A stretch of DNA of 33,965 nt from a virus, in IMG/VR virus record IMGVR_UViG_3300047550_001118, positions 1 through 33,965 of that record; one strand, 5' to 3'. The notes beneath the pieces were generated by a model, which did not search any database, was not told the DNA's origin, and saw only the letters and a list, made by a program, of their open reading frames with translations. Positions 6,572-31,443 of this stretch are shown piece after piece. The position numbers and the translations under genes are program-made. Numbering within the stretch: position 1 is the stretch's first letter; every line of letters starts with the position of its first letter.

Positions 6572-6949
6572 TTAGTACCAAAGATTGCGTTTGAAGTGGG
6601 TCCAGGCAGCGCAGGGGCCGCCAGAACCATATTTTCTACCGATATATGCAAGCGTTGCTACTGTTTGAGCGACACCAGAATCAGAATGTTTCATTCCTAG
6701 ATTCTTGTATGTTCCATCAAGCAACTGCCCAATTCCTTTGGCGCTGCTCTTAGGATTCTTGGCCTTTGGATTCCAAGCGGATTCCTTACCGACCAATTTT
6801 GTGAAGCAGGCGAACTGCTTCTTTGTTAGCAATTCCCGCGCTATCTGCTTTGGATTGACCTGCATTAGTGCTGGTCTTTCCTTGTAGATGACGGTGGCAG
6901 GTATTGCTGGCTGTGGTGCAAAGGCAGCGTTGACTAATAATGATGTCAT
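6572..6949 (-). CDS. Secreted lytic transglycosylase (SLT domain)
   Basis: From ATG 6949 the product is 125 aa with the SLT core: FTKLVGKESAWNPKA (catalytic Glu56), SSAKGIGQLLDGTYKNLG, then TLAYIGRKYGSGGPCAAWTHFKRNLWY, the usual actinobacterial ending. It cleaves glycan strands of peptidoglycan outside the membrane. The first 11 residues look like the tail of a signal peptide (AAFA before PQP). The missing basic and hydrophobic parts are encoded in frame upstream to an ATC at 7007-7009, with GGAAGGAG 7 bases before it (see findings). The ATG itself overlaps the WhiB stop (ATGA). The enzyme lies in the early operon, far from the lysis genes, so it may act in wall remodelling or exclusion rather than lysis. 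Confidence 0.85.
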   Translation of the reverse strand: MTSLLVNAAFAPQPAIPATVIYKERPALMQVNPKQIARELLTKKQFACFTKLVGKESAWNPKAKNPKSSAKGIGQLLDGTYKNLGMKHSDSGVAQTVATLAYIGRKYGSGGPCAAWTHFKRNLWY

Positions 6950-7419
6950 TGCTGAAACCCCGATGATAATGGCGATTCCCCGCCACGTTTTTCGTCTGTT
7001 AGTTGTGATTGGATTTCTCCTTCCAATTTCACACCAGCACGCTTGAGAACAGTCGTTACATACGAATGCTCAAGATGAAGTGCTGCTGCGATTTCTTTTG
7101 GTGTGCAACCCGACCCGAACATCACGCGGACCTTTTCCGCATAGTTGGCGCGTGGAGCATTCGCATAACGTGCATTAAGCATTCGTTTGCGTTGCTCTGG
7201 CGTGAAACCCGCCCATATTCCATAGGGGATTTCGTTGTCGAGTGCATAGTCCAAGCACTCCTTTCGTTCGATACAGCCATCACACATCTTGCGGATGGCA
7301 GGGAGCGACGTTCGCTCTTGTGCGCGTGATTCTGGAAAGAAGATATTTGCATCTTCAATCTCTTTGCATTTGGCTCTTGGCAGGTTGGGGATGATGGGAA
7401 TGAATTCAAAAAAATTCAC
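6946..7419 (-). CDS. WhiB-family Fe-S regulator fused to a C-terminal HTH
   Basis: Protein of 157 aa. The four cluster cysteines are Cys18, Cys46, Cys49 and Cys55 (CDGC...KEC), followed by the G-[IVL]-W-[GA]-G turn as GIWAGF (67-72) and a basic stretch. WhiB proteins bind [4Fe-4S] and sigma factor to redirect transcription. Phage copies are usually around 80-110 aa; this one continues into an HTH-like segment (CTPKEIAAALHLEHSYVTTVLKRAG, about 105-130). The last 30 residues overlap the signal-peptide region of the transglycosylase in another frame. GTG start, AAGGAG 6 bases upstream, GTGA overlap with the resolvase gene. Confidence 0.88.
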   Translation of the reverse strand: MNFFEFIPIIPNLPRAKCKEIEDANIFFPESRAQERTSLPAIRKMCDGCIERKECLDYALDNEIPYGIWAGFTPEQRKRMLNARYANAPRANYAEKVRVMFGSGCTPKEIAAALHLEHSYVTTVLKRAGVKLEGEIQSQLTDEKRGGESPLSSGFQQ

Positions 7420-7766
7420 AACCTCTCCTTCAGCCAGGAATCCAAATCCTGAACCACGAAAGCCTTCTCGATGGAAGAATTCCTGCGCTTGATGATTACA
7501 AACGCAGGTGGCGTCTCATCTAAACCACGCGCTTTGGCGTAGTTCTTAGATTCAACAACCGCTTCTTCCCAGAAGGCAGGTAAAGAAATGGATTTGCGGT
7601 TCTTCAACTCAAGGATATGAGTCTTGCCCGCGATGATGGCAACGATGTCGCCTTCATCCTTCTGACCCGAAAGTCGCAAACGTTCTGCTGATATTCCGTG
7701 AGAACGCAACCACTTGAGAACTCCCAGTTCAAAAGCAGCACCTTTGCGACCATTCGGGTTGGCCAT
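7416..7766 (-). CDS. Hjc-like Holliday junction resolvase (PD-(D/E)XK)
   Basis: Protein of 116 aa, a typical single-domain Hjc length. It has Glu13 in RKGAAFELGVLKWL, Ser33-Gly, Asp40 (EGDIVAI) and Glu53-x-Lys55 (HILELKN), the ordered active-site set of Hjc-like resolvases. The role is resolving branched replication or recombination intermediates. The start overlaps the upstream stop (TAATG). The same operon carries an endonuclease VII-like protein, which would be functionally redundant unless the two act at different times. Confidence 0.8.
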   Translation of the reverse strand: MANPNGRKGAAFELGVLKWLRSHGISAERLRLSGQKDEGDIVAIIAGKTHILELKNRKSISLPAFWEEAVVESKNYAKARGLDETPPAFVIIKRRNSSIEKAFVVQDLDSWLKERL

Positions 7767-10031: not shown

Positions 10032-10229
10032 CTACTTTCCCTTGCGTCCGAATTCAGTTGCCTTTGGGTCAATCGCCTTTAATATAGGACCGATAACTGC
10101 TGCTAAAAAGCAGGCTGCATAATCTTTCAAAGGGCGTGACGGGTCGGCGAGATAAAGGGCTGCAACTGCTGCTGCTCCTGCTCTTGCATAGGTACTGGCG
10201 ATTGCAATGATTTTTGTTTGGTCAAACAT
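10032..10229 (-). CDS. Putative holin
   Basis: Protein of 65 aa with two hydrophobic segments (IIAIASTYARAGAAAVAALYL and YAACFLAAVIGPILKAI) around a short polar loop, and a basic end (FGRKGK). Holins let the endolysin cross the membrane. AAGGAG lies 6 bases before ATG 10229. The first half of the gene overlaps the end of the endolysin frame by 103 bases. The class cannot be fixed without a family match. Confidence 0.65.
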   Translation of the reverse strand: MFDQTKIIAIASTYARAGAAAVAALYLADPSRPLKDYAACFLAAVIGPILKAIDPKATEFGRKGK

Positions 10230-10732
10230 TTGCACTCCTTGAACTTAGGTCTGCCAAATCCTACAATAAAAACTGGCAGAGATGGTTTGAGTTTCCCCCG
10301 ATTTTTTACCTTGTAAGCACGAACCTTACGACATACTTGGCCACCATTGCGTTGGTCGCCTTTATTATCTGGTGCCGTGTTGCCTTCAATTGTAATGACA
10401 GTTCCATTATCTTTGACGCTTTCAACGATTCCAATATGTGAGATGCGGTCAAGCGAATCGTTTGGGAAATCAAAGAAAGCCAAATCCCCTGGCATTGGCT
10501 CGGCGGTGGCGACATCTTGCCAGCGCTTTGCCTCGGCAAATGCCTTCGCCCCTGCTGGCGTGTAGGTACAGTCAGGTATTTTGACACCTGCCTGCTTTGC
10601 GCACCAATTGACGAATGCGCCACACCACGGCTGATTTGTCTTTTGATATTTCGTTTCATTATCGGCAGGGCCTTCAATGTAGTCAACTTCACCTGCTGCA
10701 ACTTCTAAAAATCTATTTAATTGACCGCACAT
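10127..10732 (-). CDS. CHAP-domain endolysin
   Basis: Protein of 201 aa. The CHAP amidase/endopeptidase core is clear: catalytic Cys37 in PWCGAFVNWC, His99 in ISHIGIVES, Glu116 and Asn118 in TIEGNT. It cuts peptidoglycan peptides or the amide link at lysis. No separate wall-binding domain is present. The core ends around residue 160 (GFGRPKFKE). The last 30 or so residues, Gln-rich and low in complexity, are read from the overlapping holin gene in another frame. No signal peptide, so a holin is needed. AAAGGGG stands about 9 bases upstream. Confidence 0.88.
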   Translation of the reverse strand: MCGQLNRFLEVAAGEVDYIEGPADNETKYQKTNQPWCGAFVNWCAKQAGVKIPDCTYTPAGAKAFAEAKRWQDVATAEPMPGDLAFFDFPNDSLDRISHIGIVESVKDNGTVITIEGNTAPDNKGDQRNGGQVCRKVRAYKVKNRGKLKPSLPVFIVGFGRPKFKECKCLTKQKSLQSPVPMQEQEQQQLQPFISPTRHAL

Positions 10733-27232: not shown

Positions 27233-28138
27233 TTAATAAGTAATTGACCCTGAAGCATTAAACTGATAAATATGATATGAACCTGAAGTAGTATATGTAG
27301 GCGAACCTGTTGTAGATGCTGCTGCTTGGAGTGCGCGAACAATAACTACGCCTGAACCGCCAGCACCGCCATCTCGACTTCCGCCTCCTGTTTGACGACC
27401 AGCGGCACCACCACCGCCACCTGTATTAGCAGTACCAGCAGAACCATTTCCATTTGTTCCATTAAAAGCATTACCGCCACCACCAGAGCCACCAGTTCCA
27501 CCAGTTGTTCCAGTGAAATTGTGACCACCGCCACCACCACCTGCGTAAGTAACTGACGAACCTGTAATAGAAACTGCTACTCCATTACCGCCATTACCGC
27601 CTGCTCCAGAATTACCTGCTCCACCTTGTGAACCTGCTGCACCAGCACCTCCGCCACCACCTGCTGCGCCATTTCCAGAATTACCAGCACCACCAGCATA
27701 ACCTTGATTAGCGGTGCCTGCGCCACCAGCAGAAGATGATTCACCACCAGTACCACCACCAGAGCCACCAGTTCCACCAGCACCTTGTCCTGCTAATCCA
27801 CCACCAGTTGAAGTGATAGTAGAAAATACAGAATTGTTTCCAGCAGAACTATTAGCATCACCAATACCACCAGCGCCTCCAGCGCCAATGGTTACAGTAT
27901 AAGAAGTTCCAACAAGCAAACTTAATGAAGATTCAACGGAGCCTCCGCCACCCGTAGCGGTAACAGTTGAGCGCAAACCACCTGCGCCGCCACCACCTGC
28001 AGAGTTTGAAGCAGAACCACCGCCTCCGCCCCCGCCTGCAACAACAAGATAATCAACAGTTACGGGAGGAATATAGTAAGCATTACCAACAAGCAGGCTA
28101 CGGCTAAAGGTTCCGTTCTTAAGACTTCTGATTGCCAT
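27233..28138 (-). CDS. Glycine-rich adhesin 1
   Basis: Protein of 301 aa. N-terminal module (SRSLLVGNAYYIPP), a strand (VDYLVVAGGGGGGG), then long Gly-rich runs (GGxGG, GGAG) with short beta insertions (SLLVGTSYTVTIGAGG, VSITGSSVTYAGGGGGG), and a C-terminal cap (GVVIVRALQAA...YHIYQFNASGSITY). Gly-rich repeats can form a polyglycine-II lattice that presents variable loops, as in T-even Gp38-type adhesins. ATG 28138 shares its A with the upstream stop; a longer TTG-type start at 28168 is not needed. Confidence 0.72.
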   Translation of the reverse strand: MAIRSLKNGTFSRSLLVGNAYYIPPVTVDYLVVAGGGGGGGSASNSAGGGGAGGLRSTVTATGGGGSVESSLSLLVGTSYTVTIGAGGAGGIGDANSSAGNNSVFSTITSTGGGLAGQGAGGTGGSGGGTGGESSSAGGAGTANQGYAGGAGNSGNGAAGGGGGAGAAGSQGGAGNSGAGGNGGNGVAVSITGSSVTYAGGGGGGHNFTGTTGGTGGSGGGGNAFNGTNGNGSAGTANTGGGGGAAGRQTGGGSRDGGAGGSGVVIVRALQAAASTTGSPTYTTSGSYHIYQFNASGSITY

Positions 28139-29022
28139 TAGAAGGTTATGCTCCCGCTTCCGTTCCATTGATAAATTGTGTATCCACCTGATTCAGTTCT
28201 AGTCGGAGAACCAGTTGTTGAGGCTGCAGTAATAGAACCAGGAATTCTGATAATTACTATACCGCTTCCGCCAGCGCCACCATTGCCGCCATTTTGTTCA
28301 GAAGCACCGCCGCCTCCGCCTGTGTTTGCTGTCCCAGCGTTACCAGTATTACCACCAGCACCACCACCACCAGTTCCGCCTGCGCCATTCGTTCCACTCG
28401 TTCCAGCACCACCACCTCCACCACCGCCTCTGGTTACTGATGAACCAGTAATAGATGAAGCAACGCCATTACCACCAGCCATACCGTTATTTGAATTTCC
28501 TGAGTTAGTTGCACCGACAGCACCAGCACCGCCACCTCCGCCGCCGCCACTAGATGAATTAACATTAAAATTACCGCCATTTCCACCAGCGTAACCTTGA
28601 TTAGCAGTTCCAGCGCCACCAGTTTGTCCACTTAATGCAGCCGAACCACCGCCACCTGAACCACCGCTTGCACCATTACCAAATAGACGACCGCCTAAAC
28701 CACCGCCAGTTGAAGTGATAGTAGAAAATACAGAATTAGAACCATTTGCGGAAAATGTGCCACCTGCGCCAACTGTTACTGTATAGGAAACTCCATAAGA
28801 TAAAGATAATCTTGACTCAGCAGATGCTCCCCCGCCAGATGTTTCACCTACAACAGAACAACGATAACCTCCTGCACCTCCGCCACCGCCTCTATTGTCA
28901 CCACCGCTTCCACCACCTGCAACAACTAAATATTCAACAGTAGATAATGGACTATAGGCAGCATTACCAACAAGCAAACTAGACGGTGATGTGTTACCTG
29001 TCTTGTAACTTGTGATTGACAT
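28138..29022 (-). CDS. Glycine-rich adhesin 2
   Basis: Protein of 294 aa, paralogue of the next gene: SSLLVGNAAYSPL module, VEYLVVAGGGSGG, Gly-rich body with SSITGSSVTRGGGGGGG, and a cap ending in YTIYQWNGSGSITF. The two copies share both ends and differ in the repeat body, as expected of tandem duplication followed by repeat turnover. TAATG overlap with the upstream gene. Confidence 0.72.
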   Translation of the reverse strand: MSITSYKTGNTSPSSLLVGNAAYSPLSTVEYLVVAGGGSGGDNRGGGGGAGGYRCSVVGETSGGGASAESRLSLSYGVSYTVTVGAGGTFSANGSNSVFSTITSTGGGLGGRLFGNGASGGSGGGGSAALSGQTGGAGTANQGYAGGNGGNFNVNSSSGGGGGGGAGAVGATNSGNSNNGMAGGNGVASSITGSSVTRGGGGGGGAGTSGTNGAGGTGGGGAGGNTGNAGTANTGGGGGASEQNGGNGGAGGSGIVIIRIPGSITAASTTGSPTRTESGGYTIYQWNGSGSITF

Positions 29023-29367: not shown

Positions 29368-31443
29368 TTATGCGCCCATCAACATAAAACTTGCTGGATA
29401 AACATTGAGTTCTGAACCAGATGGACCTGTTGCACCTGTTGGCCCAGTAGAACCTGTTGAACCAACTGGACCTGTTGCGCCTGTTGCACCTACTGGACCA
29501 GTTGCACCAACGGGACCAGTTGCACCAACAGGACCAGTTGCACCAACGGGTCCTGTAGCACCTACTGGACCAGTTGCACCAACGGGACCAGTTGCACCAG
29601 TATCACCTTGAACGCCTTGTGGTCCAGTCGCGCCAACTGGACCTGTTGCCCCAACTGCTCCAGTTGCACCAACTGCGCCAGTTGCACCTACTGGTCCTGT
29701 TGCACCTGTTGGTCCAACAAGATTGACACCAGCAGGCCATACACCAGCGGCCTTTGGTCCAAAAATTTGATTACTTGAAGTGTTGATATAGAAGTCGCCA
29801 TTAACGCCTTCAGTAGTAGGGTCAACAGTGCCATTAAGAACTGAAAATCCTTGTGGTCCTGTTACACCTGTTGGACCTGTTGCACCGACTGGTCCTGTGG
29901 CACCTATTGGTCCTGTAGCACCAACTGGTCCTGTTGCACCGACATCACCTTGAATTCCTTGAACACCTTGTGGTCCTGTTGCACCAGTTGCGCCAACTGC
30001 GCCTTGTGGTCCTGTTGGTCCTGTTGGTCCTTCAGCGCCAGCAGGTCCTGTTACACCTGTTGGTCCTGTTGCTCCAACATCACCTTGAATTCCTTGTGGT
30101 CCTGTGGCACCTACTGGTCCTGTTGCACCTACTGGTCCTGTTGCGCCAACTGGTCCTGTCGCTCCGACTGGTCCTGTTGCTCCAACATCGCCCTGAACGC
30201 CTTGTGGTCCAGTTGCGCCAATAGGTCCTGTTGGACCTGTGGCGCCTGTCGCACCTGTCGCACCAACTGGTCCTGTAGCACCAACTGGTCCTGTTGCACC
30301 TGTCGGACCAACTACGCCTGCTGAAACAATTGCAACAATCAACTGATGATTGCTTGCAAAGTTTGTTGTGCCTGTACCACCTGATGCTGTAAGAGTTACT
30401 GGGACTTCAACATAGCCTGTTTGAAGTGTTGGTGTTGCCGATACTGTCCATTTTTGGTAGTTATCGGATAAAGATTTATCTTGAACAATAATTACATCGT
30501 TTGTTTTGATAAGCGCTAAAAATATGTCAATGTCAACGCCATCATCATTTATGTGACTGATATTGATTTGAGTAGCAGAAATTTGTGTAGCATTATTCCA
30601 AAGAATGTCACCAGTGCTAGGGTCGCCCGTTGTGCTAGTTGTATTTGCTCTGTAGTCATAATAGTTAGCAGAACCACCGTCAGCACCAGTTGCTCCCGTT
30701 GCGCCTGTTGCACCTGTAGCACCTGTCGGTCCTGTAGCGCCTGTGGCTCCAATAGGTCCAGTAGGACCTGTTGAGCCTGTTGGTCCTTGAATGTTTCCTA
30801 CATTTTCCCATTGACTATTGCCAACGCTCCATACATAAAGGTCACCAGCGCCGACAATGTAAGCATCGCCCTGGTTGCCAGTTGGATGTGCTGCTTGCAG
30901 CGCTGCAAGAGTTGCATAAGAACCAAGAATTTGAATTCCAGCACCAGTAGCGCCAGTTGCACCTGTCGGTCCAGTCGCACCAGTAATACCTGTAGGACCA
31001 GTAGCACCTGTTGCACCTACTGGGCCAGTTGAACCTTGAGGACCTGTTGCGCCAATTGAACCTGTAGCACCTGTTGCACCTACTGGACCAGTTGAACCAG
31101 TATCGCCTTGAGGACCTGTTGCACCGACATTACCTTGAATTCCAGTTGCACCAGTTGCGCCAACATTTCCTTGAATGCCTTGAATTCCTTGAATACCTTG
31201 TGGGCCTGTTGCACCTGTTGGTCCAATATCGCCAGTTGCACCGACAGGACCTGTGACACCTGTTGGTCCTGTTAAACCTTGAACACCAGTTGGACCTGTT
31301 ACACCTGTAGCACCAGTAGCACCTACTGGACCAGTTGCACCAGCAGGACCTGTTGCACCTGTTGGACCGACGGGGCCTGCAACGCCAACATCGCTTACAA
31401 CAACGGTGTTTGTATCTTCAATTATCTCGACTGTATTAGACAC
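29368..31443 (-). CDS. Collagen-like tail fibre
   Basis: Protein of 691 aa made mainly of Gly-X-Y triplets ([13 protein letters not shown] and variants), which form triple helices. Three non-collagen inserts interrupt it: [22 protein letters not shown]... (a [14 protein letters not shown] module near residue 170), a larger beta domain (about 245-360) and [22 protein letters not shown] (about 540). GTG start at 31443 with GAGG 6 bases upstream, inside the end of the previous gene. Thr-rich triplets are potential glycosylation sites, notable given two glycosyltransferases in the same transcript. Likely a long flexible host-binding fibre. Confidence 0.85.
29415..31390. repeat. Collagen-coding low-complexity repeats
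   Basis: Several tracts of 9- and 18-base units (forms of GGTCCTGTTGCACC on the plus strand) encode the Gly-X-Y triplets. Tracts are broken at about 29730-29850, 30310-30660 and 30785-30950 by the non-collagen inserts. Near-identical units invite recombination and length change. They also produce long but meaningless Cys/Trp-rich frames on the plus strand. Confidence 0.8.

Follow-up and report, generated by a model that had tools for sequence, protein, structure and literature searches.

The question raised by this locus was where translation of a small transglycosylase gene begins within the window, meaning the whole 33,965-nt stretch of phage DNA that was analysed. An ATG-only annotation starts the gene at ATG 6949-6947 on the minus strand and gives a 125-residue ORF (6949-6572). 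The same frame is open upstream to 7069 on the minus strand, the window sequence has no ATG, GTG, or TTG in this upstream extension, and ATC 7009-7007 lies there, in frame and 20 codons before the annotated ATG. The preliminary description had pointed to this ATC, with a Shine-Dalgarno (SD) sequence 7 bases upstream and no ATG, GTG, or TTG in its place, as either a genuine start codon or an ATG with one changed base. Its coordinates were confirmed, and the codon does lie inside the whiB gene in a different frame, since whiB (7419-6946) spans the region. The step from the whiB frame to the transglycosylase frame is -1, and the whiB stop codon TGA (6948-6946) overlaps ATG 6949. The features of the locus are collected in Table 1.

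Table 1. Coordinates of the predicted features at the whiB-transglycosylase junction (window positions)
Feature	Position	Strand	Remarks
SLT transglycosylase gene from the AUC start	6572..7009	-	145 aa including the putative signal peptide; open frame
Non-canonical start codon ATC (ATT in other clades)	7007..7009	-	From comparison of whiB-linked loci
Shine-Dalgarno sequence GGAAGGAG	7017..7024	-	7-nt spacer (7016-7010) before ATC
Putative signal peptide ITTNRRKTWRGIAIIIGVSAMTSLLVNAAFA	6917..7009	-	Basic n-region, hydrophobic core, AFA; pattern kept in all clades
WhiB-like regulator gene, GTG start	6946..7419	-	Match to Pfam Whib PF02467, E 3.5e-14; 64-nt overlap with the transglycosylase gene at its 3' end
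ATG 6949, choice of ATG-only annotation	6947..6949	-	Internal Met, possibly a minor secondary start

The arrangement AGGAG-N7-ATY occurs twice in the window, among 39 AGGAG sequences, and in a single sequence this motif alone is not above chance; the evidence is comparative. Six protein-based scans of viral contigs yielded some 330 loci, 174 of them distinct as judged from the sequence between 120 nt before the conserved domain and the stop codon. The start was placed by the conserved SD sequence, or by the conserved CCAATC in about a dozen loci of the IKPE clade, which have a weaker SD sequence (GCGAG). The start codon was ATC in 78 distinct loci, ATT in 71, ATG in 23, and GTG in 2. None of the 149 ATC/ATT loci had ATG, GTG, TTG, or ATA at the start position, and their spacing between the SD sequence and the start was 7 nt, as against 5 or 6 nt in the ATG loci and 6 nt in the GTG loci. 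All 25 loci without a whiB match had ATG or GTG, a spacing of 5-6 nt, and an SD sequence of the same type. The A and T of the ATC/ATT start were invariant and the third base was only C or T (145/145), and the GAG of the SD sequence at -10 to -8 was likewise invariant (145/145). Two unbiased pattern scans, in which the start codon was given as NNN, returned only ATC or ATT (48/48 and 66/66).

Many of the metagenomic loci are closely related to each other, and the loci were also grouped at 80% domain identity, which gave 26 clusters, 20 of them with ATC/ATT; domain identity among the ATC/ATT loci went down to 45%. On the tree, ATC and ATT were interchanged at least seven times and never gave way to another codon. 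The tree of this short domain is poorly resolved, and the number of transitions between ATY and NTG (at least 3) is uncertain. ATA accounts for 27 of the 123 isoleucine codons elsewhere in these genes and for none of the starts in the 20 clusters, an outcome with a probability of about 0.007. A canonical start upstream in the open frame was absent from 144 of the 149 loci, and the first one downstream lay 8-20 codons into the gene. Judged by this comparison, AUC or AUU is fixed across about 20 clusters (80% identity) of a phage gene family. A sequencing error or single-strain mutation was ruled out by the 149 distinct loci from many metagenomes, all of them ATC or ATT and none ATG, and with it fell the earlier alternative of one base changed from ATG.

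Inferred within-clade substitutions, on a tree built from the downstream domain only, located the point at which the coding constraint changes. In the transglycosylase frame, synonymous and nonsynonymous changes numbered 87/445 before the start and 126/104 in codons 2-14 (Fisher p 4e-26), while in the whiB frame they went from 223/288 before the enzyme start to 54/177 after it. The shift in both frames indicates that the constraint passes from whiB to the enzyme frame at ATY. One inferred within-clade change fell on the start codon, compared with about 18 per codon in the region that follows (Poisson p 4e-7). The preliminary description would have been refuted by homologues that begin at 6949 with no conservation upstream; instead, the extension is conserved and begins with ATC/ATT, not ATG, in the whiB-linked relatives, and it is ATG 6949 that is not conserved, varying in place and being another codon in several clades (e.g., TTG in L043; also L115 and L116).

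Genes starting at AUU or AUC are expected to have a conserved frame from that codon together with an SD sequence at an initiating distance, and to lack a usable canonical start for the conserved product; both hold here at the sequence level. With a conserved 7-nt spacing in 149 distinct relatives and a switch of constraint at this very codon, the proposal that AUC 7009-7007 is the real start of the transglycosylase is upheld with high confidence, initiation in vivo being inferred in the absence of ribosome profiling, proteomics, or reporter data.

The enzyme matched the Pfam SLT family PF01464 at residues 69-109 (E 5e-6; 26.4 bits against a curated cut-off of 21.3) and the PHROG transglycosylase families (E 2.7e-20), and a catalytic-type Glu76 in an ES motif as well as Cys68 and Cys133 were invariant in 18 relatives. 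No sequence match was found in the PDB, and the structure model was too weak (pLDDT 64) to confirm a lysozyme-like fold, with no significant structure match in the PDB. The form starting at AUC has a basic region with a charge of +4 followed by a hydrophobic core with a 12-residue hydropathy of 2.19. Translation from ATG 6949 would retain only the last part of a signal peptide, as had been noticed before, with a hydropathy of 1.27 and no charge, the basic region and most of the core being absent. In composition, the AUC form meets the criteria for a Sec signal, namely a basic n-region, a hydrophobic core, and a small-x-small motif, and its cleavage is inferred. The relatives starting with ATG or GTG and the homologues in the Streptomyces phages Evy and Navo have comparable signal-like N-terminal segments. 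The window also contains a second wall enzyme, a CHAP-domain endolysin (10127-10732), so the transglycosylase may serve an entry or lysis step other than that of the main endolysin. No nucleotide similarity to cultured phages was found, and no relative in bacterial genomes was confirmed. These phages are uncultured, and water-dwelling Actinobacteria are put forward as the host group only by inference from whiB, a G+C content of 46%, and the homologues in actinobacterial phages.

The same region might be translated without initiation at ATC/ATT, through programmed -1 frameshifting in whiB that yields a WhiB-transglycosylase fusion. The frame relation is the required -1 step, and an SD-like sequence, which can stimulate frameshifting, would then act as the stimulator. 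No conserved slippery heptamer was visible near the SD sequence, however, the enzyme-frame constraint begins at ATY, and where whiB is absent, relatives begin the same signal peptide at an ATG or GTG that follows an SD sequence. Furthermore, six loci (L115, L254, L301, L304, L307, and L313) carry an in-frame TAA one codon before the ATT, ruling out a start or a frameshift farther upstream, and we give frameshifting practically no credence. Only marginally more can be said for ATG 6949 as the real start, coupled to the whiB stop through ATGA with the upstream peptide left untranslated. ATGA overlaps are a usual coupling signal, and several clades do have ATG-A at the whiB stop, but an ATG followed by A yields TGA in the whiB frame automatically. 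This reading also leaves unexplained the protein-level constraint on the upstream codons in the enzyme frame, sits poorly with an ATG that is missing in several clades and varies in position, and would produce the short form with its incomplete signal.

Both codons could be used: AUC would yield the enzyme for export, and reinitiation at an NTG farther downstream, at the whiB stop, would yield a short form that stays in the cytoplasm, the two making up a regulatory pair that recalls the dual starts of phage holins. The ATG overlaps or adjoins the whiB stop in the WIN-, ITQR-, and ITTQ-type clades; since the second start is conserved in neither position nor codon and the overlap is partly automatic, such a pair appears improbable, although it is not to be set aside as firmly as the two readings above.

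The AUC/AUU start is tied to the whiB overlap. Where enough upstream sequence was available, whiB ran 43-64 nt past the ATC/ATT start, in a single phase, and none of the ATG/GTG loci had a whiB match upstream. In the twelve ATG/GTG loci checked, a nuclease-like gene ended 20-24 nt before the start; in three of the whiB-less relatives (L036, L040, and L129), such a gene stands directly before the enzyme with no overlap. In the overlap phase, an NTG start places TGN in the whiB frame, a stop codon if the next base is A, and ATA followed by A gives TAA. Compared with simulated synonymous recoding (simulated medians 25-55), whiB-frame stops before +43 were avoided; the combined product over 27 representatives was 6e-13, a value that overstates independence because the representatives are related. 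In all clades, on this evidence, the whiB frame stays open as it passes the start of the enzyme gene, for no known reason.

One explanation is that the weak start is a mere by-product of the overlap, in that whiB needs its extended tail and NTG is excluded, with weak initiation having no regulatory value. The avoidance of stops before +43 and the TGA or TAA that ATG or ATA followed by A would create in whiB speak for it. Against it, the whiB tail beyond the enzyme start is conserved in neither sequence nor length, and the overlap explains the weak start incompletely: ATG would be tolerated if the second codon began with a base other than A, an escape that was not seen. One locus, L070 (ATC TCT), could take ATG without a stop in whiB and has not done so. 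We regard the by-product explanation as possible without favouring it.

Building on the observed start position, its conservation, the frame constraint, the overlap, and the avoidance of whiB-frame stops, a mechanism can be proposed in which initiation would occur at AUC 7009-7007 with insertion of fMet, guided by the strong SD sequence 7 nt upstream, while ribosomes on whiB would read the same RNA in the other frame; use in vivo and the fMet are inferred. The product, with its signal peptide, would be exported. In this proposal AUC/AUU is not only fixed in the gene family but also selected. The cultured 'Ca. Planktophila' phages F5 and E7, whose isolation has been described (PMC10202952), suggest an origin. 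They carry whiB and then an SLT-like gene in the same phase, sharing ATGA (L382:2468 and L449:1087), and the corresponding four bases are ATCA or ATTA in all ATC/ATT loci but one. Unlike in the ATC/ATT loci, the start in F5/E7 is AUG and whiB stops at the junction, and the F5 protein shares only about 32% identity with the transglycosylase. By analogy, and not from a reconstructed ancestor, the ATGA junction is inferred to be the likely ancestral state. A single change of its G to C or T would account for both the weak start and the longer whiB, weakening the enzyme start and extending whiB in one step.

Two reasons for keeping the start, both less certain than AUC as the start itself, may be considered: (a) whiB would be terminated at this point by ATG or ATA if the next base were A, and (b) a weak start discriminated by IF3 would keep a wall-cutting enzyme low or delayed. 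The dependence on IF3, the low output, its value, and the timing are inferred, and of the traits of IF3-regulated starts (infC/sigR type) the identity of the codon alone fits. We put forward only tentatively a virus-specific control in which AUC/AUU was selected as a deliberately weak, IF3-gated start within whiB. How much enzyme is made, or when, would then depend on how faithfully the host initiates translation and on the translation of the regulator gene that overlaps the start; the device would have arisen by one base change in the ATGA junction and then become fixed across a large phage group.

AUU and AUC starts are known from few cellular genes. The infC gene, encoding IF3, starts with ATT in E. 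coli and ATC in Streptomyces, IF3 discriminates against start codons of the AUU/AUC type, and Streptomyces sigR has a GTC start that is repressed by IF3 (PMC5472188). Like the phage gene, infC has a conserved AUU/AUC start missed by annotation (PMC5472188), but it is cellular, autoregulated by its own product, and not embedded in an overlapping whiB. The sigR gene is likewise actinobacterial with a conserved non-canonical start, whereas its codon is GUC, its product is a sigma factor, it is cellular, its start was demonstrated experimentally, and the repression by IF3 belongs to sigR (PMC5472188). AUU starts were also demonstrated, by mutation or protein structure, for Yersinia rcsD-HPt (PMC10191623) and for Borrelia bbe22, whose annotation was truncated (PMC13398362); in contrast to the phage gene, these genes are cellular and without a fixed overlap with a regulator gene. 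The free-standing SLT transglycosylases of Streptomyces phages (e.g., Evy gp40) share the homologous domain, the N-terminal hydrophobic signal-like segment, and the conserved Cys and Glu, but start with ATG after a normal SD sequence, and there is no whiB overlap in Evy or Navo. A literature search limited to open-licence papers found no conserved AUU/AUC start in a phage.

Here, such a start is fixed across a large environmental phage group, in an overlap whose phase imposes a cost on canonical starts. With gene callers that accept only ATG, GTG, and TTG, the enzyme of every member would be truncated and its export signal hidden, so that it would be filed as cytoplasmic. The family, with its natural set of about 150 sequences, lends itself to asking what maintains a weak start, and the junction provides a clear model for the resetting of two genes together by a single substitution within ATGA.

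Three further candidates were considered and rejected. A special phage initiator tRNA found no support, as the window has no tRNA gene; the idea that the phage uses AUY starts generally was discarded because no other gene in the window has a strong SD sequence leading only to a non-NTG start; and a conserved RNA structure at the start was dismissed since single-sequence folds were near shuffled values (z -1.85 to 0.35) and were not the same from clade to clade. Elsewhere in the window, the gene preceding whiB (7416-7766) is resolvase-like (PHROG 244), and a structural region (29368-31443 and 27233-29022) encodes a collagen-like Gly-X-Y protein and two glycine-rich repeat proteins.
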